Positions 10,389 to 61,068 are shown, counted from the first letter of the stretch. The stretch is DNA of 64,000 bases from a virus (IMGVR_UViG_3300023202_000142:121325-185324), one strand, 5' to 3'. Numbers and translations: made by a program. Notes: a model not told the origin generated them from the letters alone.

Positions 10389-10396
10389 GGTAGCTG

Positions 10397-12923: not shown

Positions 12924-12942
12924 GCACGAATTGCACAGTGCG

Positions 12943-12971
12943 TTGACAGTCGATTGCGGCGGTGAAATACT
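12943..12971 (+). promoter_or_regulatory. Promoter with GCAC/GTGC dyad upstream of chaperone gene
   Basis: TTGACA at 12943-12948, a 17-base spacer, and AATACT at 12966-12971. Just upstream is GCACAGTGC (12933-12941 region), related to the GTGCAC elements of the promoter family found after 46.8 kb. It lies in the only long gap (74 bases) of this part of the tail module, before the chaperone and tape measure genes. Confidence 0.5.
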
Positions 12972-32881: not shown

Positions 32882-32906
32882 CAGTGCTGATCGATGTGCA
32901 CATAAT
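32878..32906 (+). promoter_or_regulatory. Strong promoter with GTGCA-TGCAC operator for HTH gene
   Basis: TTGACA (32878-32883), 17 bases, CATAAT (32901-32906). The -10 sits inside the inverted repeat GTGCACATAATGCAC (32896-32910), so a repressor bound there would block it. It is the most consensus-like promoter in the window and lies directly ahead of the HTH regulator. Confidence 0.7.
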
Positions 32907-32959
32907 GCACCAATCCGCAAGCCCCGGCGGAATTCTATACGACGCAGGAGAGTGTTCGA

Positions 32960-33235
32960 ATGAACTTTCACGGTATTGAGGAAGACCCGCTGCCGCCGAA
33001 GACTGTGTGGGCGGTCCGTAAGGCGATGGGTCTTTCGCAGGAAGCCTTCGGTGAAGAGGTCGGAGTGACGCGACGCACCGTCATTTCGTGGGAAAAGGAT
33101 CCACCGGACAACAAGTACGCCCGTGCGTGCACGGGGCCGGCAAGGATTCTGATCCAGAACCACGCCGCCAAGATCAAGGACATCGATCCCGAAATGCAAT
33201 CGCTCCTGCAGGAGCATGGGCTCCTTGCCGCCTGA
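32960..33235 (+). CDS. HTH XRE/Cro-CI-type transcriptional regulator
   Basis: A 91-residue protein with GGAG at 32946-32949, ten bases upstream of ATG 32960. Residues 13-55 are a typical XRE HTH: TVWAVRKAMGLSQEAFGEEV, then GVTRRTVISWEKDP with the recognition helix. The remaining residues are a short dimerisation tail. It lies between the membrane protein and endolysin genes with its own strong promoter and an operator-like palindrome, so auto-repression is likely. It is a candidate reader of the GTGCAC elements in this genome; that link is inference. Confidence 0.85.
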   Translation: MNFHGIEEDPLPPKTVWAVRKAMGLSQEAFGEEVGVTRRTVISWEKDPPDNKYARACTGPARILIQNHAAKIKDIDPEMQSLLQEHGLLAA

Positions 33236-46857: not shown

Positions 46858-46885
46858 TTGACTGTGTGCACAGCGTGCACATATT
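46858..46885 (+). promoter_or_regulatory. GTGCAC-family promoter 1
   Basis: TTGACT (46858-46863), 16 bases, CATATT (46880-46885). The spacer contains GTGCACAGCGTGCACATA, identical in sequence to the promoters at 51358 and, on the minus strand, 60987. It drives the gene at 46939, whose start is preceded by GAGGAGGTAGC. Confidence 0.75.
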
Positions 46886-46938
46886 GTCAGTGCTCCGGGA
46901 GAGACCACCCCGCTCTCCCCTGCCAAGAGGAGGTAGCG

Positions 46939-47148
46939 ATGACCACTCGAACGAAGAACTCTCCCCCCGCATGGATGATGGCTGAGCACAACGCCCGTGA
47001 GCGCGATCGCGCCTGGGATGCTGCTCGACCTCGCGTCCGCGCGACGATGTATGCTCCGGGCCGCGACGAAACTGTGGTCGAGGACCCGCGGAGCCACACC
47101 CCGGTCGAAGAGCCTTCGGTCCGCGGTGTCACCACGATGAAAATGTGA
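46939..47148 (+). CDS. Small Arg-rich hypothetical protein
   Basis: A 69-residue protein with the start chosen by AGGAGGTAGCG directly upstream. It is rich in Arg, Ala and Pro with a short central helix (AEHNARERDRAWDAARPRV). Its promoter is the first of the GTGCAC family and its leader is shared by several other genes. No family recognised. Confidence 0.52.
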   Translation: MTTRTKNSPPAWMMAEHNARERDRAWDAARPRVRATMYAPGRDETVVEDPRSHTPVEEPSVRGVTTMKM

Positions 47149-47170
47149 ACCCCACACGAGGAGGTAGTAA

Positions 47171-47464
47171 ATGGACGCACGAAACCGAAATCTCGCTGAT
47201 TACAGTGAGCACACGAATCGCAGTCATTACGACGCGCTGACCAGTGGCGCGACGAATGACGGGTACGACGACCCCGTGGAATGGATTCGGGAGGAGGGCG
47301 CCGTGTATGCCTGCGAGGAGTATGGCGTCGACCTGGATTGGCTGGTGGGTGAGTATCCCGAACTGGCTGATGACATCGAGGCCGACATCCGCGCCGAAGA
47401 GAAGGCGCGAGCCCTGGTGGGATGGACTGAGCGATCCTGCGGAATGTTCATGGCCGATCTGTGA
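47171..47464 (+). CDS. Small acidic hypothetical protein
   Basis: A 97-residue acidic protein starting after GAGGAGGTAGTAA. Its C-terminal half (EYGVDLDWLVGEYPELADDI) is helical and strongly acidic. It follows the gene at 46939 in the same transcript. A GCACCCGGGTGC palindrome lies just after its stop (47473-47484) and could terminate or regulate transcription. Confidence 0.5.
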   Translation: MDARNRNLADYSEHTNRSHYDALTSGATNDGYDDPVEWIREEGAVYACEEYGVDLDWLVGEYPELADDIEADIRAEEKARALVGWTERSCGMFMADL

Positions 47465-47553
47465 GCCTGACTGCACCCGGGTGCGAATCTCGGGCTTGAT
47501 TTGGAGCCACCCCGGGTTGACAATGCGCGACATGTCCCTCAGAGGAGAAAGAC

Positions 47554-47943
47554 ATGGACGCAGAAATCAGCCCGTGGGTGGTTCTTCTTACTGACGCCAT
47601 CATTCCGTTGGCCGTCGTGTTTCTGACCCCGCTTCTGATCGCCCTGGCAAACAGGGCGATCGCGGCCTTTCAGGAGAAGACAAAGGTCGAACTGTCGAAG
47701 GAGCAGCGTGCTGCAATGGAGCAGGCGGTTCATGAGGCGATTCACTACGCCGAGGAACAGGCCAGGAAAGCGCTGAAGGGCGACAAGGAACTCGATGGTG
47801 AATCGAAGATGCAGGCTGCTCTCGACTACCTGAAGGCCAAGGCCGACGTCCTGGAGCTGGATGACCTTACCGAGGCTCAGGCGGACAAGCTGGCAGCCCT
47901 CGTCGAAGCTAAACTGTATCGAGAGCGCAAGGAATTGGAATGA
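47554..47943 (+). CDS. Holin of the LLH (superfamily 6) type
   Basis: A 129-residue protein. Residues 12-36 (LTDAIIPLAVVFLTPLLIAL) form one transmembrane helix with the N-terminus short. The soluble part follows the LLH-holin pattern: a helix with EQAVHEAIHYAEEQARKALK, an A-x-x-Y-L segment, and a final helix containing TEAQADKLAALVEAKLYRER. The preceding TTGACA at 47517 is promoter-like but without a clear -10. It is 14 kb from the endolysin, so the lysis genes are split. Confidence 0.72.
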   Translation: MDAEISPWVVLLTDAIIPLAVVFLTPLLIALANRAIAAFQEKTKVELSKEQRAAMEQAVHEAIHYAEEQARKALKGDKELDGESKMQAALDYLKAKADVLELDDLTEAQADKLAALVEAKLYRERKELE

Positions 47944-48368
47944 GCATCGAGACACTGATTGAAGGCTATGTTCTCGGGGAGGCTTCGCTTCGCCAGACCT
48001 ATGACAAGGCCGGCAAAGAGGCCAAAAAGAACTTCGAGGACCCCCGGGCCGCCAAGAAGGTGATCATCGATCTCGCCAAGAGATCCCACTGGGTCTACGA
48101 CTTCATGAAAAAGCTCTCCACCAACCTGGAGCGCTCGAAGCGAGGCTCGGCGGCAGCAGGCGCTTTCCCTCATGAGCCGAACCGCAAGGTCACGAAGATG
48201 TATGATGACCTGCTCAACTTGTTCGTCGACGTGAGGACGGCTCTCAAGAGGAAGGGGTTCGCCAGTGACGAGCGAAATGATCGCATGCAGGAGATGCTGC
48301 AGCGAGTTCAGAAGGGCGACCTTCTACAACGCGAGACCGCCAAGAAGCTGCTTCGCAAGATGTACTGA
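47940..48368 (+). CDS. Helical hypothetical protein coupled to holin gene
   Basis: A 142-residue basic, nearly all-helical protein whose ATG overlaps the holin stop (ATGA). The middle contains HWVYDFMKKLSTNLERSKRG and the end is Lys/Arg-rich (LQRVQKGDLLQRETAKKLLR). Translational coupling to the holin suggests a lysis-timing or membrane-associated partner, though no transmembrane helix is present. Confidence 0.5.
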   Translation: MSIETLIEGYVLGEASLRQTYDKAGKEAKKNFEDPRAAKKVIIDLAKRSHWVYDFMKKLSTNLERSKRGSAAAGAFPHEPNRKVTKMYDDLLNLFVDVRTALKRKGFASDERNDRMQEMLQRVQKGDLLQRETAKKLLRKMY

Positions 48369-48388
48369 CGGCGGACGACGAGGAAGCG

Positions 48389-48874
48389 ATGACCCAGACC
48401 GGATTCACTGGTCACCCACGCTTTGGTCTCAGCGATGACCCCGGGGACTACGAGGACGACGACATGGAAGAAAGCCTGGTACAACGCATTGAAAGCCTGC
48501 TGACCCCGTCTCCTGCCAACGGAGACCTCGTCGTAGGCATCAGGAACCACCAGGTCCGTGTGTGGCGCGTCGAGGGCACTGAGCGCAATCTGGTGGCCTA
48601 CAGCGACACTCATGGCGGCACCAGGTATTTCAACCATGTCAGCCCTGCGGCGTCGACGGTGGCGCCTGATTTCACCGAGGCTAGAGCGGTGCGCAATGGT
48701 GGCGCCTCGGAGCTTCTCCAGCACTACGCGCCCGATCTCTTCGAGCGGGCCAATGAGGTCTGGGTTGAAGGTGAGGACGAAAAGGACGACGAAGGCAAGG
48801 CGCTGCAGCCCAAGAAGAAACTGAAGCGGCGCAGAAAGAAGACCAAGAGCAAGGTCGATGAAGGTTGGGGTTGA
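48389..48874 (+). CDS. Hypothetical protein with shared N-terminal helix and Lys/Arg tail
   Basis: A 161-residue protein if ATG 48389 (GAGGAAG upstream) is used; ATG 48464 would give MEESLVQRIESLLTPS as N-terminus, matching the recurrent helix of unrelated genes in this window. A beta-rich middle (DLVVGIRNHQVRVWRVEG) precedes an acidic segment and a basic tail (PKKKLKRRRKKTKSKV) that may bind nucleic acid. Its stop overlaps the promoter ahead of the structured RNA. Confidence 0.5.
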   Translation: MTQTGFTGHPRFGLSDDPGDYEDDDMEESLVQRIESLLTPSPANGDLVVGIRNHQVRVWRVEGTERNLVAYSDTHGGTRYFNHVSPAASTVAPDFTEARAVRNGGASELLQHYAPDLFERANEVWVEGEDEKDDEGKALQPKKKLKRRRKKTKSKVDEGWG

Positions 48875-48899
48875 CAGCGTGCACGGAGTTCACTAGATC
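48871..48899 (+). promoter_or_regulatory. GTGCAC-family promoter ahead of structured RNA
   Basis: TTGACA (48871-48876) followed by GCGTGCACGGAGTTCACTAG. It contains one full GTGCAC and one TTCAC half site, but the -10 (TAGATC at 48894) is weak. Unlike the other members it precedes a non-coding structured region rather than an AGGAGGTAGC leader. Confidence 0.45.
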
Positions 48900-49093
48900 T
48901 GGTCCTGTCACGAGTGAGATCGGATGGTGATCCGGCTGCCAGTTCCCGGCAACACACTGGGATGCGTACCTAGCGGGTACGAAGGGGCTCGAAACCCCAG
49001 CTCGTGCTGAGCCCGGGGCTCGGGGCCCTGCAATCCCCCCACCCCGTCGTCGAGTGCAGCGGGCATCGGCGCGCACGAGCCCTGGGCTTTCTT
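48900..49093 (+). ncRNA. Structured RNA with class II tRNA-like cloverleaf and competing pairing partner
   Basis: No gene occupies 48875-49155. CACGAGT (48909-48915) pairs with GCTCGTG (49000-49006), enclosing four hairpins: CGGAT/ATCCG (48921-48934), TGCC/GGCA with a 7-base loop (48937-48951), GTACC/GGTAC (48966-48980) and GGGG/CCCC with the T-arm-like loop CTCGAAA (48984-48998). The order and sizes resemble a class II tRNA with a long variable arm, but position 33 would be G, T54 would be C, and no CCA follows. A second strand, GCACGAGC (49073-49080), pairs perfectly with GCTCGTGC (49000-49007), overlapping a terminal hairpin AGCC/GGCT with TTTCTT. A switchable leader or degenerate tRNA is possible. 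Confidence 0.45.
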
Positions 49094-49155
49094 CACACCT
49101 TGTCTCGAAACAGTGATGCGGCGATGATGCCTCGTGTTGTCGACACGGGAGCGTC

Positions 49156-49434
49156 ATGCTGGTTTCTTACGTCCAAGCCCTTCTCGAAAAGAAGATGTCG
49201 CCGTTCAAGCGCAAGGATACGCTGAACGACGGCCCTAGGGGCGGCGAGAACGCCAAGGCGAGCAAGTGGGACTGCAAGTGCAAAAACTACAAGTGCACGT
49301 GCACAGATGATGAGGGCAACAAGAAGTCCTTCAAGATCAAGAAGGGCTACAAAAAGAAGTACAACAGAGAGTACAAGGGGCACATGCCGTACAAGCGTTG
49401 GCGCTCCAAGGTGCGAAAGGACAGGGATGGGTGA
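49156..49434 (+). CDS. Small Lys-rich Cys-cluster protein with shared N-terminal helix
   Basis: A 92-residue protein. Residues 1-14 (MLVSYVQALLEKKM) fit the recurrent helix h-h-x-x-h-x-x-L-L. The middle contains CKCKNYKCTC, four cysteines in alternating C-x-C pairs that might bind metal, and the C-terminal 45 residues are extremely basic (KKSFKIKKGYKKKYNREYKG), suggesting nucleic acid binding. It follows the structured RNA. It could be a packaged DNA-condensing or ejected protein; inference only. Confidence 0.55.
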   Translation: MLVSYVQALLEKKMSPFKRKDTLNDGPRGGENAKASKWDCKCKNYKCTCTDDEGNKKSFKIKKGYKKKYNREYKGHMPYKRWRSKVRKDRDG

Positions 49435-49762
49435 GATAACCGAGACGGTCGATCGCGTATTGACCGAGCGTGCCCTGAAGGGTTCTGTGGATGTCGCGAA
49501 GGCGAAGCTGTTGGAGCCCAGGGATGTCTTCGGTCGCCAGACGCGTAAGAAGGTGAAATCCGCTCAGATCTGGTCCAGGTACAACTTTGAACTGGACGGC
49601 GGTGCGACTGTCGAGCTTAGGCCGTCGACCAAGGCTGGTAGGTTCAACGCTAAGGTCCAGACTCCTGGTTCTGCCAAGGATCTGACGTTCCTGGGCAAGA
49701 CCCCCAAGGAGCTGCGGAAGATATTTGGGGACCCGGCGGTCCGCGTCAGAATGAAGGTGTGA
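49427..49762 (+). CDS. Small basic protein with related N-terminal helix
   Basis: A 111-residue protein whose ATG overlaps the previous gene. Its N-terminal GEITETVDRVLTERALKG is a looser form of the shared helix. The rest has a beta-rich core (GGATVELRPSTKAGRFNAKV) and a basic C-terminus. It lies in a run of three genes with similar heads (49156, 49427 and 49764). Function unknown. Confidence 0.5.
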   Translation: MGEITETVDRVLTERALKGSVDVAKAKLLEPRDVFGRQTRKKVKSAQIWSRYNFELDGGATVELRPSTKAGRFNAKVQTPGSAKDLTFLGKTPKELRKIFGDPAVRVRMKV

Positions 49763-49763
49763 G

Positions 49764-50948
49764 ATGGTAGTCGAAGACGTGCAGGTGCTCTTGGAGCGAA
49801 TGTCTCCCCAGGAGGCTCGACGCATTCTCGGGCTCAGTGGTGGGTATCCGTCCAAGGACGAGGTTCAGAAGGCGTGGAAGAAACTGGCCTTCAAGAATCA
49901 CCCGGATCGAGGCGGCGACCCCGACAAAATGTCGAAGATCAACCAGGCACGCGATGTCCTGCTTGGCAAGACGAGTCGTCGCCCTGGAGGGTCGACGCGG
50001 TCATCGACGTCGTCGAACTGGAAGCCTTCGGGCTCAAGTTCCAGCAGGCAGAAGCGCAAAAAACCTGAACCGCCACCTCAAGCGCCCGGAGAGGACCTGA
50101 AGACGGCGATGCGGGCGATGCCTCATGGTGTTGAGTGGATGTTCAGGACTGAGCGCCTGGTGTCCACTGAGCGCAGGTATGCGACGGCGCCAGACGGCTC
50201 GACATACTCACGCGAGATTGAGGGCGTGATCCTCTACGGCCAGACTGGATCTCATCACGTTTTCCTGTCCCTGAAGCGGACGATTCACAAGACTCGTGGC
50301 GGCAGCTCGAATCGGGGCCACGAGGTGTTCGTGACGACATCGCCGCTTCGAACAGATCTTCAGAGGTTCGGGCTCAAGACGATCAAGAGCCTCAAAGATC
50401 ACATGGGGCTCAAGAACTCTGGTCGTCTCCAGTTCTATCGAATCTCGACCGAGGGCGTGAAGAAAGCGGTGACCAGGGGCCAGGCTGGAGACATCCTCTA
50501 CGGGCCGACAGGGGCCTCGAAGACGAAGTTCAGCTTCAAGGGTGTCGTCGAGGCCGCAACGGGCGATGGTGGCCCCAGCGGTGGTGACAGGAAGCACCAG
50601 GTCGAAATGGTTGGCAAAGGGCTGGTCGGCGATGAGTTCGATAAGCGCAAAGAACGGTTCGGCCGCACCAACCGGGTGACGGGTTCAAGGTGGACGATCT
50701 TCGTTGACGGCAAGGAGGTCCGAGAACTCACGGTTGACGAAATCGAGGCCCTGGTTGGTAAGCACTGGTTCGATGCTGTCTACAGCTCCAACAAGTACTT
50801 CGGTGAGCGCGTCAACATCACACGTAAGCGAGGTGGTGGTCGCATGCGTGCCCCCAGCGGAAAGAGGATGCTGAAGATGTTGGCCGACAATCTCGAAGCC
50901 GGGCAGCTCAAACGGTACGTTGAGGCGACGGTCCGTGCGTTCGGCTGA
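49764..50948 (+). CDS. J-domain (DnaJ-like) protein with C-terminal unknown domains
   Basis: A 394-residue protein. Residues 1-14 (MVVEDVQVLLERMS) match the shared N-terminal helix. Residues 15-68 form a J domain with the HPD motif at 46-48 in KLAFKNHPDRGGDPDKMSKI. A Ser/Arg/Pro-rich disordered linker (70-110) follows, then about 280 residues of unrecognised fold with a Gly-rich middle and basic end. J proteins recruit and activate Hsp70, here presumably host DnaK. An N-terminal tag on a J protein suggests that it could be packaged or targeted. It ends at TGA 50948, one base before the next promoter. Confidence 0.8.
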   Translation: MVVEDVQVLLERMSPQEARRILGLSGGYPSKDEVQKAWKKLAFKNHPDRGGDPDKMSKINQARDVLLGKTSRRPGGSTRSSTSSNWKPSGSSSSRQKRKKPEPPPQAPGEDLKTAMRAMPHGVEWMFRTERLVSTERRYATAPDGSTYSREIEGVILYGQTGSHHVFLSLKRTIHKTRGGSSNRGHEVFVTTSPLRTDLQRFGLKTIKSLKDHMGLKNSGRLQFYRISTEGVKKAVTRGQAGDILYGPTGASKTKFSFKGVVEAATGDGGPSGGDRKHQVEMVGKGLVGDEFDKRKERFGRTNRVTGSRWTIFVDGKEVRELTVDEIEALVGKHWFDAVYSSNKYFGERVNITRKRGGGRMRAPSGKRMLKMLADNLEAGQLKRYVEATVRAFG

Positions 50949-50949
50949 C

Positions 50950-50977
50950 TTGACTATGTGAATTGCGTGCACATATT
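50950..50977 (+). promoter_or_regulatory. GTGCAC-family promoter 2
   Basis: TTGACT (50950-50955), 16 bases, CATATT (50972-50977). The spacer has GTGAAT and GCGTGCACATA, a degenerate first element and a conserved second. The gene at 51020 follows behind CGAGGAGGTAGC. Confidence 0.72.
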
Positions 50978-51019
50978 CTCCTTGCGGAGGTTTCGACCCA
51001 GACCCCGCGAGGAGGTAGC

Positions 51020-51361
51020 ATGATTCACGCAGACGAGACCGTCAGAAAGGCGATCTACCGTCGAACCCGGTATTGCAACGACGGCGTCTATTACACGCTG
51101 GCGGCCACCAAGAGACACAACACGATCGACAAGGCGCGGTCCTATCGCGCCAGACGTCTCGCTAAGCGCAGCGTCAAGCTCACGGGGCGCGATGCCTGGG
51201 TGCTCGGTCGACTCGAAGCTGGCTGGGTGCCGATGTGGCGCTACACGAGACGCTACGACTCCGACGGTGGCAGGGTTGAGGATCGCGTCCTCACCGCGGT
51301 TCCGCCGGACACCCACCTTCGAGCGGTCAGTTCGAAGCCCGGGTATCGGAAACGGGCTTGA
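51020..51361 (+). CDS. Small basic hypothetical protein
   Basis: A 113-residue basic protein (start by AGGAGGTAGC then ATG). It has an alternating helix/strand layout with AIYRRTRYCNDGVYYTLAAT near the start and many Arg residues, perhaps nucleic acid binding. It carries its own GTGCAC promoter and its stop overlaps the next TTGACA. Confidence 0.5.
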   Translation: MIHADETVRKAIYRRTRYCNDGVYYTLAATKRHNTIDKARSYRARRLAKRSVKLTGRDAWVLGRLEAGWVPMWRYTRRYDSDGGRVEDRVLTAVPPDTHLRAVSSKPGYRKRA

Positions 51362-51385
51362 CACCGTGCACAGCGTGCACATACT
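51358..51385 (+). promoter_or_regulatory. GTGCAC-family promoter 3
   Basis: TTGACA (51358-51363), 16 bases, CATACT (51380-51385), spacer with GTGCACAGCGTGCACATA. It is the closest match to the consensus and overlaps the stop codon of the upstream gene. The following leader is TGAGGAGGTAGCG before ATG 51433. Confidence 0.78.
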
Positions 51386-51432
51386 GAAGGTGCCGGGGCG
51401 GTTACCCCACCGTCCCCACTGAGGAGGTAGCG

Positions 51433-51693
51433 ATGGAGGAACTTTTCGAGAAATTGATTGCCGCGGGTTTCATCAGGACCTCGACTCTCGCGGTCAGCAC
51501 AGCCCGTTCCGATGAGCCCGGGTCCGTGATGGTCGACGGCATCACCTACGACGGTCACTTCGATCTCAATGTTTACGTCGCCAAGGACTCGCGAGATGAG
51601 TACGGAATCCGCGACCACCACCACCACCGGGTCGAAGGCGGCGCCGTCGACGAACTGGTGGCTGAGATCCTTGAGATCTGGGAGGCCGTCTGA
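51433..51693 (+). CDS. Small protein with poly-His segment
   Basis: An 86-residue acidic protein. It opens EELFEKLIAAGFIRTSTLAV and contains DHHHHRVEGG near residue 62-71, a four-histidine run that could bind metal. The C-terminal helix (VDELVAEILEIWEAV) is amphipathic. It is the first gene of an operon with 51693, 51964 and 52368. Function not identified. Confidence 0.5.
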   Translation: MEELFEKLIAAGFIRTSTLAVSTARSDEPGSVMVDGITYDGHFDLNVYVAKDSRDEYGIRDHHHHRVEGGAVDELVAEILEIWEAV

Positions 51694-51971
51694 TGGGTGT
51701 TCGACGAGACGCACGATTCTGGGCACGCCACTTCATCGAGGAAGATGGCAACCACTTCTCAATGCCGGTCGATCGGTACGTCGAGATGCTCGACGACCAC
51801 CGTGAGTTCGTGATCGATGGTGACGACATCAGTCGCGGAGACTACGTGTTCCGGCATCTCGCCTACTCTACCCTGGTCGGTGCCGTTCGGGCAGCCGCCC
51901 GGGAGATGAGCAGGTATGACGCAGACTCAGACGAGGTAACCCCACCACCACGAGGAGGTAGCAATGGCTGA
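51693..51971 (+). CDS. Small helical hypothetical protein
   Basis: A 92-residue protein starting at ATG 51693 overlapping the previous TGA. It has an acidic central helix (DRYVEMLDDHREFVIDGDDI) and a Pro/Gly C-terminus that reads across the leader of the next gene, with an overlap of 8 bases. No motif assigned. Confidence 0.48.
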   Translation: MGVRRDARFWARHFIEEDGNHFSMPVDRYVEMLDDHREFVIDGDDISRGDYVFRHLAYSTLVGAVRAAAREMSRYDADSDEVTPPPRGGSNG

Positions 51972-52356
51972 ACTCATTCATAAATACACTCGCGCCCAGG
52001 CCATCGAGGATGGCGTCCTCGTTGATGTCAACGAGATGGCCACCGAGGCCGGGATCACCTTTCACGCCGCGATGACGTCGTCACTCTACGATGTCATGGT
52101 CCCCACCGACGCAATGGACGGCTACGGCCAGTCCGTCGAGGGTCGTCTCTGGGATTGTTTGTGGATGCTCCACATGGCGATTCGCGGATCGATCCCCTCG
52201 ACCGTCGAGAGCTACGGTCCTGGCCAGGAGCTGCGTTACAAGTTCCTGGCTCTGAACGACGACCTCGAAACAGTCGAGGTTGAGGTCAAGGCCATTACGG
52301 GACCCGGTGACAACATGGAGCCGGTCATCACGCTGATGCACCCGCACGAAGACTAA
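51964..52356 (+). CDS. DUF6573-like protein
   Basis: A 130-residue protein with the DUF6573 layout: IHKYTRAQAIEDGVLVDVNE, then EAGITFHAAMTSSLYD, an aromatic motif with GQSVEGRLWDCLWMLHMAI and a final beta strand. The family is frequent in plasmids and phages of diverse bacteria but its function is unknown. It has an AGGAGGTAGC leader and lies in the operon with the HAD phosphatase gene. Confidence 0.75.
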   Translation: MAELIHKYTRAQAIEDGVLVDVNEMATEAGITFHAAMTSSLYDVMVPTDAMDGYGQSVEGRLWDCLWMLHMAIRGSIPSTVESYGPGQELRYKFLALNDDLETVEVEVKAITGPGDNMEPVITLMHPHED

Positions 52357-52367
52357 CGGAGGACTCA

Positions 52368-52949
52368 ATGACTATGAAAACGATTCTGCTGGACGTAGAC
52401 GGCGTCTTGGCCAACTGGATGAAGTCAGCATGTCGTGCCATCGGCGAGGACTACAGCGCCATCATGGGTCGCTTTGACGAGGTCGACTTCGACAGTCGCG
52501 GCGAGCACTGGGGAATCGAGGCGCTGGGCGACATCGACCCCGGTGAACTCTGGGATGCCATTCACGCCGAGGGACGTTCGTTCTGGGCGGAGCTGGAGCC
52601 CTACCCCTGGGCGATCGAGCTTTACGAGGCATGTCGCGCCGAGGCCCCGACGTACATCCTGACCAGTCCGTCTCGACATCACTCGTCGCCGGCAGGAAAG
52701 GTCGAGTGGATGGATCGTCACCTCGGTGGTGGCGAACCCTTCCGGGATTTCCTGATTGGGTCCCCAAAGGAACTCTGCGCCCGCCCGGGCTCACTCCTCA
52801 TCGATGACCGCCCAAGGAATTGCGACCGATTCCGACGCGCCGGCGGTTCGGCGATCTTGTTTCCGACTCCCTGGAATCATCACTGTGAACATGCCAGTGA
52901 CCCATTGGCATTCGTTATGCCCCGCATCAAGCATTGGCTCGCGGGTTGA
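52368..52949 (+). CDS. 5'(3')-deoxyribonucleotidase of the HAD superfamily
   Basis: A 193-residue HAD-fold phosphatase. Motif I is ILLDVDGVLANW (D9, D11), motif II ILTSPSRHHSS, motif III with a basic residue GSPKELCARPG, and motif IV LLIDDRPRNCD. The insert WAELEPYPWAIEL is usual for phage and bacterial deoxyribonucleotidases (NT5C type). It would dephosphorylate dNMPs, affecting nucleotide pools during infection. It follows the DUF6573-like gene and ends just before the next GTGCAC promoter. Confidence 0.85.
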   Translation: MTMKTILLDVDGVLANWMKSACRAIGEDYSAIMGRFDEVDFDSRGEHWGIEALGDIDPGELWDAIHAEGRSFWAELEPYPWAIELYEACRAEAPTYILTSPSRHHSSPAGKVEWMDRHLGGGEPFRDFLIGSPKELCARPGSLLIDDRPRNCDRFRRAGGSAILFPTPWNHHCEHASDPLAFVMPRIKHWLAG

Positions 52950-52973
52950 CAGCGTGCACTACGTGCACATACT
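52946..52973 (+). promoter_or_regulatory. GTGCAC-family promoter 4
   Basis: TTGACA (52946-52951), 16 bases, CATACT (52968-52973); spacer with GTGCACTACGTGCACATA, differing from promoter 3 by two bases between the elements. The leader ATAGGAGGTAGCGAC precedes ATG 53013. Confidence 0.75.
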
Positions 52974-53012
52974 TTGGGTGCCCACCCAGCACACCACATA
53001 GGAGGTAGCGAC

Positions 53013-53648
53013 ATGAGCAAACGATACGAGAAATCCTACGGCGGGAAATACGATGCCGACCTCGACATTGTCGAGATCGCCAAGCGCGTGAAGAGTGAGA
53101 TCCGCGAGGCGAGCAAGAACGGTGATCTTCCTGAGATGAAGGTCTCGGTGACCACCGACCGCTACAGCGGCGGCCAGAGCCTCAGTGTCCGCATCAAGAC
53201 ACTCCCGGAGGGCTTCGAGGTTTGCAATCCAGAATACGTCGAGAAGATGGTCGAGAACCCCCATGGGTATGACCCGGTCCCCCGCTACAGCGAGAAGATG
53301 CGTGACGTCATCTCGAAGGTCGAGGGCATCGTTGGCGCCTACAACTACGACGGCTCCGATTCGATGATCGACTACTTCGACGTCAACTTCTACACCCACG
53401 TCAATCTCGATGATGATTCGAGCTACTTCCGGTCCGCCAAAGAAGCCTACATCGCGGCGAAGAACTCAGAACCCGAGTTCGACGACACCGTACTGGCGCG
53501 CCGGATTTCGTCCCTGATCGTCGAGGTCGACGATGTTCTCGCTGACATGGATGGCCATCCCCTGGCGGAAGAGGTCAGCCGGGCAGGTACCGCGCTTGAG
53601 CGGATCTACATCAAGATGACTGCTCACATGGAGGATGAAGCGGCATGA
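53013..53648 (+). CDS. LPD29-like (large polyvalent protein-associated) domain protein
   Basis: A 211-residue protein. Residues 15-55 (DLDIVEIAKRVKSEIREASK, then KVSVTTDRYSGGQSLSVRI) match the conserved core of LPD29, a small domain in polyvalent proteins of phages and conjugative elements, with the characteristic R-Y-S-G-G-x-S-x-x-V. The rest is acidic with two helices (DVLADMDGHPLAEEVSRAGT). These proteins are thought to be delivered into recipient cells; its role in a tailed phage is unknown. Confidence 0.65.
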   Translation: MSKRYEKSYGGKYDADLDIVEIAKRVKSEIREASKNGDLPEMKVSVTTDRYSGGQSLSVRIKTLPEGFEVCNPEYVEKMVENPHGYDPVPRYSEKMRDVISKVEGIVGAYNYDGSDSMIDYFDVNFYTHVNLDDDSSYFRSAKEAYIAAKNSEPEFDDTVLARRISSLIVEVDDVLADMDGHPLAEEVSRAGTALERIYIKMTAHMEDEAA

Positions 53649-55600: not shown

Positions 55601-56178
55601 GCTATCGAATCAAGGATGTCGAAGCCTTCCAGGTCCTCGAACACAGTTTGCGCAGAGTCTGGCCGCAAGCGAAGTGGGTTAAGCTAAACGCGACGAGAAA
55701 CCCCGAGGACACCAGGGTGGGTGTCACTTGGGGAACGATGGTTCTGGGCATCCCTGTCTTGCTGTGGGCTCGCAGAACTCCGTCTGATGGCGCCACGACG
55801 CATGCGGACGTGATAGCTGCTGTTCATGGCCGACCCCCGAGGGGCGTGGAGACCTGGCAAATCCGCATTATTGCGCCGAAACTCGCCCCGTGCGCGCCGG
55901 ATCCTTCTCGACTCAGCTCCTGGACAGATGATGTCATTCTGCAGGGATGGTGGGTCGTCTCGAAGCAGATCGAGCAGGAACGCGCTTACGTTGAGTCGAA
56001 GTCCTGGCTGGCCAGTTCCCTGTCGTCTCTCATCTCTGAGACCAGGGATCTGTGGGACCAGGTGGTGCGTGACACCAGGGCACCAGAGGCTGGCATGGGC
56101 GCTGAGGATAAGATCGCCTGGCAGCGCGCGATGTCGTGCTGGAGTCATGTCATTGAGTCACTCGGTGATTCATCTTGA
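55597..56178 (+). CDS. Hypothetical protein
   Basis: A 193-residue protein overlapping the previous gene by ATGA. An N-terminal strand-helix unit (IKDVEAFQVLEHSLRRVWPQ) and a central beta region (GVTWGTMVLGIPVLLWARR) precede a C-terminal helical part (QIEQERAYVESKSWLASSLS). No family recognised. Its stop overlaps the TTGACG of the SSB promoter. Confidence 0.5.
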   Translation: MSYRIKDVEAFQVLEHSLRRVWPQAKWVKLNATRNPEDTRVGVTWGTMVLGIPVLLWARRTPSDGATTHADVIAAVHGRPPRGVETWQIRIIAPKLAPCAPDPSRLSSWTDDVILQGWWVVSKQIEQERAYVESKSWLASSLSSLISETRDLWDQVVRDTRAPEAGMGAEDKIAWQRAMSCWSHVIESLGDSS

Positions 56179-56204
56179 CGTGTGAAGACTGTGCACACTA
56201 GGTT
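56175..56204 (+). promoter_or_regulatory. GTGCAC-family promoter ahead of SSB (divergent)
   Basis: TTGACG (56175-56180), GTGAAG and GTGCACAC in the spacer, TAGGTT (56199-56204) as a TAnnnT -10 at 18 bases. It is the least regular coding member: one element is degenerate and the spacing is longer. The next start is GTG 56233, preceded by GTGGAGG. Confidence 0.45.
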
Positions 56205-56232
56205 GGCCTGAACTGGAACCAGTGGAGGAACC

Positions 56233-56637
56233 GTGAGCACAGTCAATCAGTTCAACGTTGTGGGTCGACTGGGTGTCGACCCGGAGCTATCGTACACGCC
56301 AAGCGGCACACCGAAGTGCGTGATCAGCGTAGCAACCGATGTCGGGTATGGTGAGAACAAGGATACGACATGGGTGCGCGCGACGGCTTGGGGCCGCAGT
56401 GCCGAGACGATCGAGAAGTATTTCGCGAAGGGCAAGCTCATCTTCCTCACCGGCGAAATCAGGACCTACAAATACGAGAAGAAAGGTCAGACGCACTATG
56501 GCTGGGGCCTCGATGTGAAGTCCTGGAGCTTCATTGGGGGCCGTGACGAGTCATTCGGCGAGCCCGAGCAGGCCGAAATTCCGGCTGCGCCGGAGTCCTG
56601 GGACCAGGATTTCAGTGATGATGACATTCCTTTCTGA
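56233..56637 (+). CDS. ssb: Single-stranded DNA-binding protein
   Basis: A 134-residue SSB with a GTG start. The N-terminal 100 residues are an OB fold with NQFNVVGRLGVDPELSYTPS, then WVRATAWGRSAETIEKYFAK and LTGEIRTYKYEKKG. The acidic C-terminus ends DDDIPF, the protein-interaction tip that recruits replication partners. It protects single-stranded DNA during phage replication. The genes after it are close behind and probably co-transcribed. Confidence 0.92.
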   Translation: MSTVNQFNVVGRLGVDPELSYTPSGTPKCVISVATDVGYGENKDTTWVRATAWGRSAETIEKYFAKGKLIFLTGEIRTYKYEKKGQTHYGWGLDVKSWSFIGGRDESFGEPEQAEIPAAPESWDQDFSDDDIPF

Positions 56638-56648
56638 TGGTTTGAGTG

Positions 56649-57155
56649 ATGTCTGCTTTCCAGAACTACGTGCAACTCATTTTGCAGCTCAGAGGGGTGT
56701 CGAACGACTCTCCCGAGGCTGATGTCATCCGTGAGAAAATGGGTGAGCACTGGCACAACCTGACGCAGTCTGAGATCAGCCTGGTGAGGGAGGTAGGTGA
56801 AGCTCTGTCGTCGCCGAAAGCCTGGGAGAGCCAGCCCACTGGGCATGGTGCTTTCGATTTCGCTGACAAAAATCCGCCGCCTCATCTTGTCCTGCGCTGC
56901 GGCAAGACGTCTGTTGCTTTCGCGATTCCCGTCAAGTGGCAACCCGGTGATGGTAGGGGCGAGACTTTTTCATCGACATCAGGTCGGTTGGACTGGGAGA
57001 CGCAGATCCTCGCCTCGATGGCCGACGAGGTCGCCGCTTGGGTGGATCAGAGGCAAATTTTTCGGAAGATGTTCGCTGTCATGTCCGGTCTGCCTCCTGG
57101 CGCCTCGGTGTCCGGGGACCTTATCGACTGGGGTGATGGCGAAAAACACGAATAG
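56649..57155 (+). CDS. Hypothetical protein downstream of SSB
   Basis: A 168-residue protein starting at ATG 56649; a GTG at 56646 is also possible. A helical first half (VQLILQLRGVSNDSPEADVI, then EISLVREVGEALSS) is followed by a beta-rich second half. Linked to SSB in one operon, it may be replication-related. No motif supports more. Confidence 0.52.
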   Translation: MSAFQNYVQLILQLRGVSNDSPEADVIREKMGEHWHNLTQSEISLVREVGEALSSPKAWESQPTGHGAFDFADKNPPPHLVLRCGKTSVAFAIPVKWQPGDGRGETFSSTSGRLDWETQILASMADEVAAWVDQRQIFRKMFAVMSGLPPGASVSGDLIDWGDGEKHE

Positions 57156-57182
57156 ATCACACAACACAACCAAGGACAGCCC

Positions 57183-57575
57183 ATGTGGCTCAAGACGCTC
57201 AGCGGTAACCTGCTTCACATCAACAATGCCTCCAGCCTGTCGAAGGCGAACATCGTCCAGGTCCTCAAAATGGTGAGCCCGGAGACGTCGACGATCGACA
57301 ACTGGAATCTCGACCAACTCCGAGCGATCGGGGAGAAGAATGGCATCCAGCTCCTGCACTCGACGGAGGGCGAGGCGCGCAAAGAGTTCGCTGCGAAGGC
57401 GTTGAAACGTGCCCTGAACATCACCGAGCCGCTGGGTGAGTGGATCATTCTTTGCGGCATCCTCGGCGGCTCCGAGAAGATCGTGGCGTCATTCGACACC
57501 GAGGACAACGCGCAGCGTGCCATCGATGCCCTGGGCGATCACCTCAAGGCGACGTCGATCGAGGACCTGCTGTGA
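57183..57575 (+). CDS. Small hypothetical protein in the SSB operon
   Basis: A 130-residue protein with AAGGACA before ATG 57183. The first residues (WLKTLSGNLLHINNASSLSK) are beta-strand-like and the last 40 (WIILCGILGGSEKIVASFDT) resemble a small ferredoxin-like strand-helix pair. A central helix is acidic. Overlaps the next GTG. Confidence 0.48.
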   Translation: MWLKTLSGNLLHINNASSLSKANIVQVLKMVSPETSTIDNWNLDQLRAIGEKNGIQLLHSTEGEARKEFAAKALKRALNITEPLGEWIILCGILGGSEKIVASFDTEDNAQRAIDALGDHLKATSIEDLL

Positions 57576-57955
57576 GCCATCCTCTCCAGGTGTCGATTCC
57601 TATCGCAGCGTCGGCCCTTCGTCGCGACATCGACAGCGGCCTGGTCGATTGGGATGGGGTCGACCTGAAGGGCAAGGCGAAGATCGCGTTTGAGTACGCG
57701 CGCAACGACTCGCTGAACTGGATGCTTTGCGGTGGTGAGGATTCGCTATTCCGACTCGGCTGTGGCATCCTTCTGACCATGCTGGGCCCAGATAGCGCCG
57801 ATTTCCGTCGCATCAAGGCGGAGCTGAACATGCTGCGCGACCTCAACGCGATGATGCAGGGTGTTCCCGTCTCCCTGGAGCAGATGATGGAGGATCACGA
57901 GGATGGTGACCATCTCGGCCTCATGGGCATCTGGCATCGAACCAAGGACACCTGA
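57572..57955 (+). CDS. Small helical hypothetical protein
   Basis: A 127-residue protein with GTG 57572 overlapping the previous TGA. It is mainly helical (DIDSGLVDWDGVDLKGKAKI, then ELNMLRDLNAMMQ) and acidic in its C-terminus. It precedes the 410-residue gene, again by overlap. Function unknown. Confidence 0.48.
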   Translation: MSHPLQVSIPIAASALRRDIDSGLVDWDGVDLKGKAKIAFEYARNDSLNWMLCGGEDSLFRLGCGILLTMLGPDSADFRRIKAELNMLRDLNAMMQGVPVSLEQMMEDHEDGDHLGLMGIWHRTKDT

Positions 57956-59187
57956 TGGACAAGTATAGCTACGAAGCCTCCGATCGACTCAAGGACATTC
58001 TGGCGGGGCCAGACCTTGGGTCGCCCCAGGACATCGTGTTTCATCCTGAGATGCTGCAGCACGTCCAGAAGGCCGCAGGAGAGGATATCCTGAAGATGGA
58101 TCGACGAATGAGTCGCCACAAGCGCGCCTTCGATCCCGACGAGGCCCGCCAGGAGCTACTGGAGGGCTGGACGCCCTTCATCAGCGATTACCTGCACCGG
58201 GAGCCGGACGCAGATCTCGCTTCGCTGCTTCACAACACGCTGCACTGGTGCGAGAGTCACCTGGGCCACGAGCAACCCGAGAAGCCGGCAAAGTGGGTCA
58301 ACGAGTGGCTTGATCTCGCCGCCCAGGTCTACGAGAAGCTGCTCGCCAAGGGGTGCAGCGTCCGGGTGATCCTGCATCCCGTCGGTGTCGACGCTGAGGG
58401 CGAAGAGGTCGTTGTTGTTACTCAGAAAGGTGCACCGCTTGATATCGAGGCCACCAGCTTCGAGATTTCGGCCTTGGCTGACGGGATCGTTGATCGCTTC
58501 GAGGACGGTGCCTCCTATGTCCTCTACCAGGTGATGCCGTCACCGTGCTTCCTGGATCCTGATACCAGGAGGTATCGGCGCTGCGCCGTCGCGCGTGCTG
58601 CCGGCCCCGGCTTTGCGAAGCCGGATCGATCAGCGTATGTCTCCCATGAGCCGAGGCCGAACCCCGACACTCCGACGTGGGCGTCCCAGGAGGTGCGCGC
58701 ACCGATGTGGAGCGTCACTGAGACCTTCGTATTGGCTCAGAACTCCGTACAGGAGGCGCTTAGCGACTCGGAGAGGGGCTTGGGCGCTGTCACTGACATC
58801 CAGGCCAGGTTGTGGTTTCTCGGTACGCAGAAGAACGCTGAAGCACTCAGGGACATGCTCGACGGGATCAGTGATCCCAGGTTTTCCGGCGTGATGATGA
58901 AGGGACAGGACAGCCTCGGCGACTCCGAACTCACGGTTGTTGAGGATGTTCTCGACTACGTTTTCGAGGGCACCCTCGACGAGCTGTTCGAGTCGATCGC
59001 GACCGGCGGTGATGTTGTGCCGTGCCTGAACCGGGCAATCATGGATAGCGTGACCTGGCAACGCGAACTCCGTGACATCCCGCGCGCGATCGGCGTCTAT
59101 TTCCAGATGCTGTGGTGCCCGGTCCTGTTTGAACCGGGCTACATCGGTTTCGAGACGGTCTACGGCTTCGGCAAGCGCCAGACATAA
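57955..59187 (+). CDS. Hypothetical protein at the end of the SSB operon
   Basis: A 410-residue acidic protein whose ATG overlaps the preceding TGA. The first 110 residues are helical (MLQHVQKAAGEDILKMDRRM), the middle mixed with a charged hydrophobic segment (GASYVLYQVMPSPCFLDPDT), and the end strand-rich. No family recognised. The + operon ends here against a convergent minus-strand tRNA, with an inverted repeat between them. Confidence 0.5.
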   Translation: MDKYSYEASDRLKDILAGPDLGSPQDIVFHPEMLQHVQKAAGEDILKMDRRMSRHKRAFDPDEARQELLEGWTPFISDYLHREPDADLASLLHNTLHWCESHLGHEQPEKPAKWVNEWLDLAAQVYEKLLAKGCSVRVILHPVGVDAEGEEVVVVTQKGAPLDIEATSFEISALADGIVDRFEDGASYVLYQVMPSPCFLDPDTRRYRRCAVARAAGPGFAKPDRSAYVSHEPRPNPDTPTWASQEVRAPMWSVTETFVLAQNSVQEALSDSERGLGAVTDIQARLWFLGTQKNAEALRDMLDGISDPRFSGVMMKGQDSLGDSELTVVEDVLDYVFEGTLDELFESIATGGDVVPCLNRAIMDSVTWQRELRDIPRAIGVYFQMLWCPVLFEPGYIGFETVYGFGKRQT

Positions 59188-59190
59188 GCA

Positions 59191-59217
59191 ATCCGCTGAG
59201 CTATTCGCCCAGCGGAT
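59191..59217. terminator. Inverted repeat between convergent transcripts
   Basis: ATCCGCTG (59191-59198) and CAGCGGAT (59210-59217) form a perfect 8-base stem with an 11-base loop immediately after the + operon's last gene and just beyond the 3' end of the minus-strand tRNA. It could terminate both transcripts; the missing T-run makes intrinsic termination uncertain. Confidence 0.4.
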
Positions 59218-59221
59218 CGAT

Positions 59222-59295
59222 TGGTTCCGAGAGCAGGGGTCGAACCTGCATTTCCGGGTTCAGGGCCCGGCGTCCTGCCATTAGACGATCCCGGA
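59222..59295 (-). tRNA. tRNA-Gln (CTG)
   Basis: Read on the minus strand, the 74-base sequence folds as a class I tRNA: acceptor TCCGGGA/TCTCGGA, D arm GTCT/GGAC, anticodon stem CCGGG/CCCGG, T arm GCAGG-TTCGACC-CCTGC, discriminator A, and a genome-encoded CCA (59222-59224). The loop CCCTGAA places CTG in positions 34-36, decoding CAG. Position 33 is C instead of the near-invariant U, unusual for a functional tRNA. A minus-strand GTGCAC promoter lies 61 bases upstream. Confidence 0.9.
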
Positions 59296-59355
59296 GAAGG
59301 CGTCTCCCCGGGGCGGGCCCGGGGGGCCGAGAGGGAGCACCGCCCGACCAATGAC

Positions 59356-59383
59356 AATGTGTGCACGCACTTCACATCGTCAA
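59356..59383 (-). promoter_or_regulatory. Minus-strand GTGCAC-family promoter for tRNA-Gln
   Basis: On the minus strand: TTGACG (59383-59378), 16 bases, CACATT (59361-59356), with GTGAAG and GTGCACACA in the spacer. It lies between the end of the minus operon and the tRNA, so it would start a transcript about 55 bases ahead of the mature tRNA 5' end. Confidence 0.65.
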
Positions 59384-59387
59384 GGGG

Positions 59388-59927
59388 TTACTCCTCTTCG
59401 TCGTCGATCCTTTTGCGCCACACCGGTCCGATCTCGGGGCAGTCGGTGGCGTTGTGGTGTCGGTCGAAGTCTCGTTGTTCGGCATCCCCGGAACCATCCG
59501 GCGCTTCCCAGTCGTCGTCGTCTGAGACGTCGCGGTAGTCATACCCGAATGGAAACGTAAAGCCGGGTTCCAGGACGTAGAGGTGGTACTGGTTTGCGGC
59601 GTCGACCAGGCGCTTTTCGCTGGGGTACAGCTCGATGGCTTCGGTGGTGGTTCCGCATAGCTCATTCTTGATGCGCTGCATGTCGCGCCAGTCGCGGATC
59701 GGGTCGCGGTCCTGTCGGCGAATCGACAGATGGACCATGCGCGGCCAGCCGCCTTCTGGGATCGCCTCGCCGTATTCGCGTACCAGATCGTAGACGATGA
59801 CCTGGTATCTGGAGTTGGTCCATGTCTCGATGAGGTCGTCACCGACCGGCATGGGGACCCCTGGCGTGAATGATGTCCACGCCGGGTCTGGTTTGACCCG
59901 ACGCCTCTTACGCTTGATGGTTTTCAT
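59388..59927 (-). CDS. DUF7694-like protein
   Basis: A 179-residue protein, last gene of the minus operon; the start MKTIKRKRRRVKPDP overlaps the upstream stop (ATGA), and an extended reading from 59975 is possible. The core WPRMVHLSIRRQDRDPIRDW, then RIKNELCGTTTEAIELYPSE and LVDAANQYHLYVL, matches a widespread phage family of unknown function with conserved R-x-W-x-x-x-Q-x-x-K-N and N-Q-Y-H. The C-terminus is acidic. Confidence 0.72.
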   Translation of the reverse strand: MKTIKRKRRRVKPDPAWTSFTPGVPMPVGDDLIETWTNSRYQVIVYDLVREYGEAIPEGGWPRMVHLSIRRQDRDPIRDWRDMQRIKNELCGTTTEAIELYPSEKRLVDAANQYHLYVLEPGFTFPFGYDYRDVSDDDDWEAPDGSGDAEQRDFDRHHNATDCPEIGPVWRKRIDDEEE

Positions 59928-60196
59928 GCTGCCTCGTGTAGCTTCGAGTAGGTTTCGTCGCGACGCCGAATCCACTTGGAACGCTTCTCACGGTCGGTGT
60001 GCATGCAGACGTGCGCATACTCATCGAGTCGATCCAGGACAGCCAGCGCAACGGCGTGCGCCGCGTCAGCCCGGCGTGGTCGTCGTGACCATTCTTCGGC
60101 GACGAGCACCGCGAGCCCCACGGCATCCACGACGTCGATCTCGACGGCGTAGTTCATGAGGTCGTGGTGAACGGGTTTGAGGTCGTGTCGGTCCAT
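59924..60196 (-). CDS. Small hypothetical protein of the minus operon
   Basis: A 90-residue protein with a GGAGG site upstream on the minus strand. Its core DVVDAVGLAVLVAEEWSRRP and AAHAVALAVLDRLDEYAHVC suggests a small helical bundle rich in Ala and Val. It overlaps the DUF7694-like gene. Unknown function. Confidence 0.5.
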   Translation of the reverse strand: MDRHDLKPVHHDLMNYAVEIDVVDAVGLAVLVAEEWSRRPRRADAAHAVALAVLDRLDEYAHVCMHTDREKRSKWIRRRDETYSKLHEAA

Positions 60197-60210
60197 TCGT
60201 TCCTCCTGTG

Positions 60211-60567
60211 TCAGGATACGTTGAAGAGAGTTTCGCCGCCGCTGATGACGTCGCCGTCAACAAAGACGTCGGCGTACCCGGTGGAGAGCATGATGGTCTC
60301 AGGATCCGTGTTCTCGGGATCCTCGCTGACGCGCAACCAGGCATCCTCGGCATGCTCCCAGTCGGATTCCAGTGTCTTGACGGCATCGCGGATCTTGCCG
60401 AGTTCGCTGTCGCTCAGCTTGCATGGCCGGGCGCCGATATGTGTCAGCGCCCGAGTGTCGGCTTTGCCGTCCAGTGCGGTGCTGTAGTGGTGGGCTTCCA
60501 GCATCCCTTCGAGGGCTTCGAGGTCGTGGTTCTTGATGGCGTTGTCGATGAATTCCTTGCGTGTCAT
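60211..60567 (-). CDS. Hypothetical protein of the minus operon
   Basis: A 118-residue protein; the start MTRKEFIDNAIKNHDLEALE is chosen because AGGAGG lies just upstream, not the longer upstream reading from 60648. It is mixed helix-strand, ending in a beta-rich stretch. It belongs to a four-gene minus transcript. No family recognised. Confidence 0.5.
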   Translation of the reverse strand: MTRKEFIDNAIKNHDLEALEGMLEAHHYSTALDGKADTRALTHIGARPCKLSDSELGKIRDAVKTLESDWEHAEDAWLRVSEDPENTDPETIMLSTGYADVFVDGDVISGGETLFNVS

Positions 60568-60589
60568 TTTTGCCTCCTGTGTGGTTGGG

Positions 60590-60931
60590 TTATCGGCCGT
60601 AGCGCATCGCTTTGTAGGCCGGGTGAAGGGGCTTGAGCGCGTCGGCAATCCGGCTGACGTCCGCTGACTCTGGAACGCTTTTGAGCGCTTCGCATGTCGC
60701 GCCCGCCAGTTCCATGAGGTCTTTTCGTCGCTTCGCGTAGGTCACGGCGAGAGCGCCGATTCCGTCACGGATGTCGGAGTTGGTGAGGACTGCGAGTGTC
60801 CAGTTCTTGCCGTTGTCGACCTCGCGATAGACGACCACGCGCTCGTCGTCGCGGCAGGTGTATCCTTCGACGTGTTCGATGCGGTCCCGGCAGTGAACAG
60901 GAATGTCTTTGTTTCGCTTCAGTTTCGTCAT
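60590..60931 (-). CDS. Hypothetical protein, first gene of the minus operon
   Basis: A 113-residue protein starting MTKLKRNKDIPVHCRDRI after AGGAGGTAGCG, the same leader as many + strand genes of this region. It has helical spacing with RRKDLMELAGATCEALKSVP. It is driven by the minus-strand member of the GTGCAC promoter family at 60987-61014. Function unknown. Confidence 0.55.
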   Translation of the reverse strand: MTKLKRNKDIPVHCRDRIEHVEGYTCRDDERVVVYREVDNGKNWTLAVLTNSDIRDGIGALAVTYAKRRKDLMELAGATCEALKSVPESADVSRIADALKPLHPAYKAMRYGR

Positions 60932-60986
60932 CGCTACCTCCTGGGTCGTGAACATGGGAGGTGGGGTCGCCTCCCGCAGCACCAAC

Positions 60987-61014
60987 AATATGTGCACGCT
61001 GTGCACGGAGTCAA
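60987..61014 (-). promoter_or_regulatory. Minus-strand GTGCAC-family promoter (divergent pair)
   Basis: On the minus strand: TTGACT (61014-61009), 16 bases with GTGCACAGCGTGCACATA, CATATT (60992-60987). The spacer sequence matches promoters 1 and 3 exactly. It drives the minus operon and stands back to back with the + promoter at 61040. Confidence 0.75.
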
Positions 61015-61039
61015 GGGGAGTTGTGCGATTCGAATCGTG

Positions 61040-61068
61040 TTGACAGGTGTGACATCAGTGCACATAGT
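61040..61068 (+). promoter_or_regulatory. GTGCAC-family promoter (divergent, + strand)
   Basis: TTGACA (61040-61045), 17 bases containing GTGTGACATCAGTGCACATA, CATAGT (61063-61068). The first element is degenerate. The two divergent -35 elements lie about 25 bases apart, so regulator binding could affect both transcripts. The leader GGAGGGCAG then ATG 61100 follows. Confidence 0.68.

Follow-up and report, generated by a model that had tools for sequence, protein, structure and literature searches.

What reads the GTGCAC element that recurs in front of many genes of an uncultivated virus, and what would it do there? The element lies in the record IMGVR_UViG_3300023202_000142 (185,324 bases, G+C 59%), of which the last 64 kb (positions 121,325 to 185,324) are called the window here; the other 121 kb were analysed too. 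Sites in the window are numbered from its first letter, whereas those outside it are given in record positions. An earlier note had described, between 46,858 and 61,068 of the window, a family of promoters with two GTGCAC hexamers three bases apart, and had taken it for one regulon of the accessory region, read by a sequence-specific regulator or an alternative sigma factor. The evidence given below argues for a single inverted repeat, GTGCA-N5-TGCAC, which is tied to promoters throughout the record and is likely to be the operator of a repressor, a phage-encoded helix-turn-helix (HTH) dimer.

Judging from its major head protein, which belongs to the T4 gp23 type (PHROG 138, E 2.5e-61; tblastn matches to T4-type myophages), the virus is a large T4-related phage. 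Relatives whose head proteins share 45-58% identity with it are uncultivated viruses as well, and their records reach 198 kb; that closer ones exist is evident from a 94%-identical head fragment. A home-made codon-usage caller gave 286 genes, with approximate start positions.

The recurrent promoter and its dyad

Promoters were sought on both strands of the whole record with an iterated 42-bp position weight matrix, simulated sequence serving as the null. The search revealed 23 near-identical promoters of the form TTGACn-nnGTGCAnnncGTGCA-CATATT with a 16-bp spacer, scoring between 34 and 57 bits (null maximum, 7.2 bits). Six of them are located in the window (Table 1) and 17 in the remaining 121 kb; one regulon is thus retained, without its confinement to the right end of the genome. 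The nine sites counted earlier in the window are all present, divided into six strong and three degenerate ones (48871, 56175, and 61040) rather than into at least seven and two. The site given as 60987 is real and has a perfect dyad; it lies on the minus strand and runs from 61014 to 60987. The spacer, described as 16-17 bases long, is 16 bp in all strong sites; it is 17 bp in the degenerate site at 61040 and in a related site at 32878. A loose pattern allowing three mismatches, applied to the window only, was not significant (46 matches vs 36 expected).

The invariant or nearly invariant columns of the cassette alignment are the -35 TTGAC (21/23 cassettes, the other two deviating at one base), GTG at spacer positions 3-5, the second GTGCAC, which is overlapped by the -10 cAtAtT, and a T-G 6-7 bases past the -10, likely the -1/+1 start site. 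Throughout the 42 bp such columns are interleaved with freely varying ones. As the earlier note held for most sites, AGGAGGTAGC and a gene lie behind five of the six strong window promoters. Behind the sixth (-59383) is a lone tRNA-Gln gene; most other tRNA genes of the record are clustered at 59-62 kb. The conserved [GTA]TG that follows the -10 was considered as the start of a leader peptide, which was rejected because neither reading frames nor stops are conserved. One strong cassette promoter outside the window (115,566-115,539, minus strand; 52.6 bits, perfect dyad) is oriented so that it would transcribe the major head protein gene in antisense from its 3' end; it has no Shine-Dalgarno (SD) sequence or called gene behind it, and an antisense RNA to the capsid gene is possible.

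The arrangement GTGCAC-N3-GTGCAC can equally be read as a 15-bp dyad, GTGCA-N5-TGCAC, and the paired hexamers are better explained in this way: of the TGCAC half-sites in non-coding sequence, 13 are paired with an inverted partner only and two with a direct partner only, and the direct repeat was rejected on these counts. The whole record contains 18 perfect dyads (0.05 expected) and 44 dyads with at most one mismatch (3.7 expected), and among gaps of 0-12 bp only a gap of 5 is enriched at such a level. The motif is far from equally frequent within coding sequence, since gene interiors, which constitute 87% of the record, hold none of the 18 perfect dyads and five of the 44. A dyad with up to two mismatches is present in 19 of 20 recognisable intergenic sigma70-like promoters (background, 5.5%), by a search pattern that includes the cassette form of the -10 and so favours cassette promoters.

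Within the cassettes the dyad has a constant phase in the 16-bp spacer, with a single one (-69125) 2 bp off. Approximately 17 further dyads occupy non-cassette promoter positions, e.g., over the -10 (window 32896), at the start site (record 74262), or upstream of the -35 (window 12922). The related sites that the earlier note had seen at 12943 and 32878 are real and differ from the cassettes in their arrangement. By our own placement, the offset of the dyad from the -10 spans about -36 to +13 bp. Dyads are also found upstream of a Dda-like helicase gene (87617) and of gene g223, as well as directly against the ATG of SD-less genes: GTGTA(A/G)TCTGTGCAC followed by ATG or ATCATG at record positions 40002, 45196, and 51123, and GTACACTGCGTGCACATG at 73029. 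Transcripts of these SD-less genes may be leaderless, because the dyads abutting their ATGs contain a plausible -10 (TAATCT, TAGTCT, or TACACT). A form that is kept while the position varies is as expected of a repressor site, and half-site centres 10 bp apart, i.e., one helical turn, are as expected for an HTH dimer.

The leader hairpin

In most cassettes the predicted RNA starts with a hairpin that has ACCCC in its loop, followed by AGGAGGTAGC and the start codon. The arms vary between cassettes yet pair with their own partners: the summed duplex energy is -260 kcal/mol vs -160 +/- 13 kcal/mol for swapped arms, and none of 20,000 swapped-arm permutations was as good as the native pairing. 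Of the upstream regions that have a GGAGGTAG site, 67% contain ACCCC, as against 7% of the remaining ones; at record positions 173278 and 13446 ACCCC occurs together with an SD and without a cassette promoter. The leaders of two distant cassettes, -3157 and +168182 (window 46858), are near-identical. An intrinsic terminator was rejected because an SD follows the hairpin and a T run almost never does (one leader only, -69125).

The hairpin probably provides mRNA stabilisation or a second point of control at the level of the RNA; it might protect the mRNA, be bound by a protein, or have its loop pair with the SD. As a second and separate element, the ACCCC-loop leader could reveal an RNA-binding partner. 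CsrA is encoded by the phage (record 77,823-78,056, minus strand; PF02599, E 7.8e-20), with a near-perfect dyad upstream at 78094; its link to the hairpin is only speculative, because the conserved ACCCC loop is not a CsrA (GGA) site.

Table 1. Promoters, dyads, leaders, and candidate regulator genes (window positions unless marked as record positions)
Feature	Position	Strand	Details
Dyad GAGCA-CGAAT-TGCAC	12922..12936	+	One mismatch; directly upstream of the -35 at 12943
Promoter TTGACA-17-CATAAT before HTH gene	32878..32906	+	Perfect dyad 32896-32910, over the -10 and downstream
g240, 91-aa HTH_3 protein (PF01381, E 1.4e-6)	32960..33235	+	Perfect dyad on own promoter
Cassette promoter	46858..46885	+	-35 TTGACT, 16-bp spacer, -10 CATATT; 55.3 bits
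Perfect dyad GTGCA-CAGCG-TGCAC of the 46858 promoter	46866-46880	+	From dyad scan
Predicted 5' leader hairpin GGGAGAG-ACCACCCCG-CTCTCCC	46897..46919	+
Ribosome-binding site GGAGGTAGC	46929..46937	+	Then gene 46939-47148, 69 aa, function unassigned
Degenerate site TTGACA..GTGCACGGAGTTCAC..TAGAT	48871..48898	+	10.7 bits; dyad 48879-48893, one mismatch; without cassette leader
Cassette promoter	50950..50977	+	46.4 bits; dyad GTGAA-TTGCG-TGCAC 50958-50972
Leader of the 50950 promoter		+	Predicted hairpin, loop CGACCC; SD 51011; gene 51020-51361
Cassette promoter	51358..51385	+	53.3 bits; perfect dyad 51366-51380
Leader of the 51358 promoter		+	Predicted hairpin GGGGCGG-TTACCCCA-CCGTCCCC; SD 51423; gene 51433-51693
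Cassette promoter	52946..52973	+	47.8 bits; perfect dyad 52954-52968
Short leader of the 52946 promoter, GTGC-CCACCCA-GCAC		+	SD 53001; gene 53013-53648
Degenerate promoter TTGACG-TGTGAAGACTGTGCACAC-TAGGTT	56175..56204	+	Dyad 56182-56196, one mismatch; gene 56233-56637
Lone tRNA-Gln (CTG)	59222-59295	-	Own cassette promoter
Cassette promoter	59356..59383	-	48.1 bits; dyad 59361-59375; feeds the lone tRNA-Gln
Cassette promoter	60987..61014	-	56.3 bits; perfect dyad 60992-61006
Leader of the 61014 promoter		-	Predicted hairpin GGGAGG-CGACCCCA-CCTCCC; SD 60933-60941; gene start 60931
Divergent degenerate promoter TTGACA-17-CATAGT	61040..61068	+	Gene 61100-62035
Dyad GTGAC-ATCAG-TGCAC of the 61040 promoter	61049-61063	+	Two mismatches
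g146, HTH_3 (E 6e-12)	record 72244-72540		Second gene of g147-g146 operon
g151	record 74296-74625		Dyad at start site; divergent from g150 (HTH-like)

Candidate regulators and readings of the dyad

Five HTH proteins (g146, g150, g151, g159, and g240) are candidate regulators. The HTH protein at 32960, g240, which the earlier note had proposed, indeed matches HTH_3, and its promoter bears a perfect dyad, but at least four rivals compete with it; the ribbon-helix-helix protein suggested at 45562 gave no Pfam match. The apparently leaderless first gene of the g147-g146 operon starts at a dyad, and g159 is HTH_3-like, slightly below the Pfam cut-off. The best candidates are the XRE/HTH proteins g146, g151, and g240, with a dyad on the gene or operon. 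All five lack a homologue in three relatives, and homology searches in known phages gave short local matches only. A serine recombinase of 224 aa (resolvase domain, E 5.4e-36; record 74,857-75,531, minus strand) is encoded near the HTH genes and dyads at 73-78 kb.

The reading that we consider likely is that a dimeric HTH repressor encoded by the phage uses GTGCA-N5-TGCAC as its operator. Bound to the spacer, the -10, or the start region, such a regulator would exclude RNA polymerase; in its absence, or once it is inactivated, the promoters would fire with the host sigma70-type polymerase. The recurrent promoters would then form one regulon spanning most of the sigma70-like promoters that can be recognised in this T4-related phage, in which accessory genes would use a standard cassette of promoter plus operator, 5'-terminal ACCCC-loop hairpin, and AGGAGGTAGC. 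Expression of these genes at early or middle times, as proposed before, is plausible. Several points weigh against a repressor of this kind: the constant place of the dyad in the cassette spacer could also be explained by an activator acting on spacer geometry; at least five HTH proteins compete for the role and are linked to the motif by position alone; no relative carries the motif, so that cross-genome conservation cannot be demonstrated; and the source is an uncultivated contig with home-made gene calls.

An activator of this sort, MerR-like or of the middle-promoter type, would be encoded by the phage, act on the -35/-10 spacer, and switch the regulon on. The shared phase of the dyad speaks for it, and phage activators serve middle genes in T4 relatives (PMC2988021); it is nevertheless unlikely, given that the dyads outside the cassettes range from upstream of the -35 to the start site, which is unusual for a single activator, and that the -35 and -10 are near consensus with a 16-bp spacer requiring no distortion. 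In T4 middle promoters a MotA box, TGCTTtA, is located 12 bp from the -10 and replaces the -35 (PMC2988021), whereas the cassette consensus has no MotA box and has the -35 TTGAC instead. The spacer and -10, tightly conserved at 23 sites, might alternatively mark promoters of an alternative or phage-encoded sigma factor. This half of the earlier proposal, unlike the sequence-specific regulator, is disfavoured and extremely improbable, because both the -35 TTGAC and the -10 (cAtAtT/TAnnnT) look like ordinary sigma70 elements, relative to which the dyad shifts without losing its form; the called genes, moreover, yielded no convincing match to sigma region 2 or 4 when searched with consensus-sequence probes, the only means by which sigma factors and LexA were sought.

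GTGCA-like LexA boxes exist in some other phyla, and a palindrome as long as this one, present on many phage promoters, might be an SOS box of the host, read by a LexA-type repressor or another host regulator that would tie the phage to host stress. The consensus probe revealed no LexA-like gene in the phage, as this reading would have it. We nonetheless hold it to be improbable: about 45 sites would titrate a host regulator, phage HTH genes carry dyads on their own promoters, the promoter families of relatives differ, and a library search for the LexA box gave nothing usable. Recent copying, in which promoter modules were spread by recombination together with accessory genes and spacer conservation reflects ancestry, agrees with the near-identical leaders at -3157 and +168182 and with the mostly accessory nature of the cassette genes, which recalls the T4-type mobile regulatory cassettes cited in PMC4503421. 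It is quite improbable in view of the alternation of conserved and freely varying columns within 42 bp, the joint change of hairpin arms, and the dyads at unrelated non-cassette promoters. Copying and selection are compatible, and both can be true.

Relatives, known systems, and neighbouring features

Homologues in three relatives were found for two of the 24 cassette genes and for 47 of all 286 genes; by this comparison the cassettes fall within the variable portion of the genome, and their genes are almost all accessory. A gene preceded by a dyad, g223, does have homologues in the relatives. The cassette motif was found in none of 15 related records, and the dyad was absent or at chance level in the 11 related records checked for it. 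The exact motif pattern had no match in viral contigs or genome contigs; a looser pattern, whose matches were rejected, hit three viral contigs in one identical, unrelated stretch that lacks both a TTGAC -35 and a leader. A search of viral contigs for homologues of g114 and g140, both of them cassette genes, gave nothing useful. Three relatives have other recurrent promoter families, namely TTGACAGACGCt-n-ATGCnGTAAGATG in G003 and G008 and TTGACAatcgCAAACCA-n-TAGaTTG, often followed by GGAGGACACCATG, in G006. The g114 ortholog in G003 (57% identity) lies directly behind G003's own promoter type, whereas g114 itself lies behind a GTGCA cassette. Such families, together with this swap, would make concerted evolution of a regulator with its dozens of sites directly testable.

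One specific sequence at many promoters far above chance, in a flexible position overlapping polymerase contacts, is what characterizes dispersed operators of master repressors, and both features were observed here. In SPbeta, the 15-bp element SPBRE in the promoters of many phage genes was recognised in silico and then shown to be the site of the master repressor MrpR (PMC10516654). The dyad is likewise a 15-bp element at many phage promoters; it differs from that of the temperate Bacillus prophage, with its approximately 10 sites and a repressor of tyrosine-recombinase fold, in having about 44 sites, a symmetric form, and HTH proteins as the only candidates. Stoperators of cluster A mycobacteriophages are also scattered over one phage genome (more than 20 repressor sites), but they are 13-bp asymmetric sequences bound by monomers and oriented with transcription (PMC9283540), in contrast to an inverted repeat with a 5-bp gap that is tied to promoters. 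In cluster K, the start-associated sequence (SAS) GGGATAGGAGCCC lies at many small-gene starts, about one-half of which have an adjoining inverted repeat (extended SAS) that differs between subclusters, is 17 bp long, and mostly has a 4-13 bp spacer (PMC3203893). The likeness is a recurrent element before many genes plus an inverted repeat; the difference is that the phage considered here has AGGAGGTAGC, an RNA hairpin, and, within a clear promoter, a 15-bp fixed-gap dyad. PeSL elements of T4-type phages, as named in PMC4503421, combine a strong sigma70-like promoter with a stem-loop and recur in variable regions. The cassettes share this combination and its setting in variable regions of a T4-type genome, but their hairpin is inside the 5' leader and followed by an SD, and their promoter carries an operator. 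The PeSL stem-loops were reportedly described as terminators in 2014. The C1 protein of phage P1 is a single repressor with many promoter-overlapping operators across a large myophage genome; these are asymmetric, and neither operator sequence nor repressor is known to be related to the system described here. SPBRE/MrpR and the stoperators are thus precedents for the dyad, and SAS/extended SAS and PeSL resemble the form of the cassette; none fits in its defining details.

T4-type phages are the classic example of strict lysis with transcription driven by activators. We tentatively raise the possibility, itself doubtful, that large uncultivated T4-related phages have a repressor-type master circuit with genome-specific operators, and hence possibly a dormant or plasmid-like state, which T4-type phages are not known to have, together with a standard two-layer cassette whose DNA operator and RNA hairpin control sit on the same promoter copy. 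An operator on nearly every recognisable promoter would, if this is true, mean a different control logic within the T4-type lineage. With respect to the host, the one relative among genome contigs, a 183-kb contig of a Phycisphaerae metagenome-assembled genome (JAJDDX010000500.1), has a head protein sharing 51% identity with that of the record, a weak hint at a planctomycete host for the phage group. An actinobacterial host, first suggested by GTG starts and G+C content, was dropped because the phage carries CsrA and lipoprotein/spanin-like genes.

Another repeated sequence, the perfect 12-bp palindrome GCACCCGGGTGC, is present in 11 copies spread over the record (including window 4097-4108 and 47473-47484) and is often followed by AG or AGT. 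The scattered palindromes of relatives are different: GGCAGTCGACTGCC in G005 (20 copies), GCGAAAGTsACTTTCGC in G006 (6 copies), and TGTACTsAGTACA in G003 (4 copies). The record also includes an array resembling clustered regularly interspaced short palindromic repeats (CRISPR) at 7,780-8,741, with 14 repeats (consensus GTTTCACACCCTGCTGAGTGGGTTAGATGCTCAGAC) and very uneven spacers of 18-59 bp. It adjoins a gene whose 571-aa product has a Cas12f1-like TNB domain (PF07282, E 2.6e-16; record 8,801-10,516, minus strand), and the two may represent a compact type V system carried by the phage. Directly after this array begins the cassette promoter at -7750.

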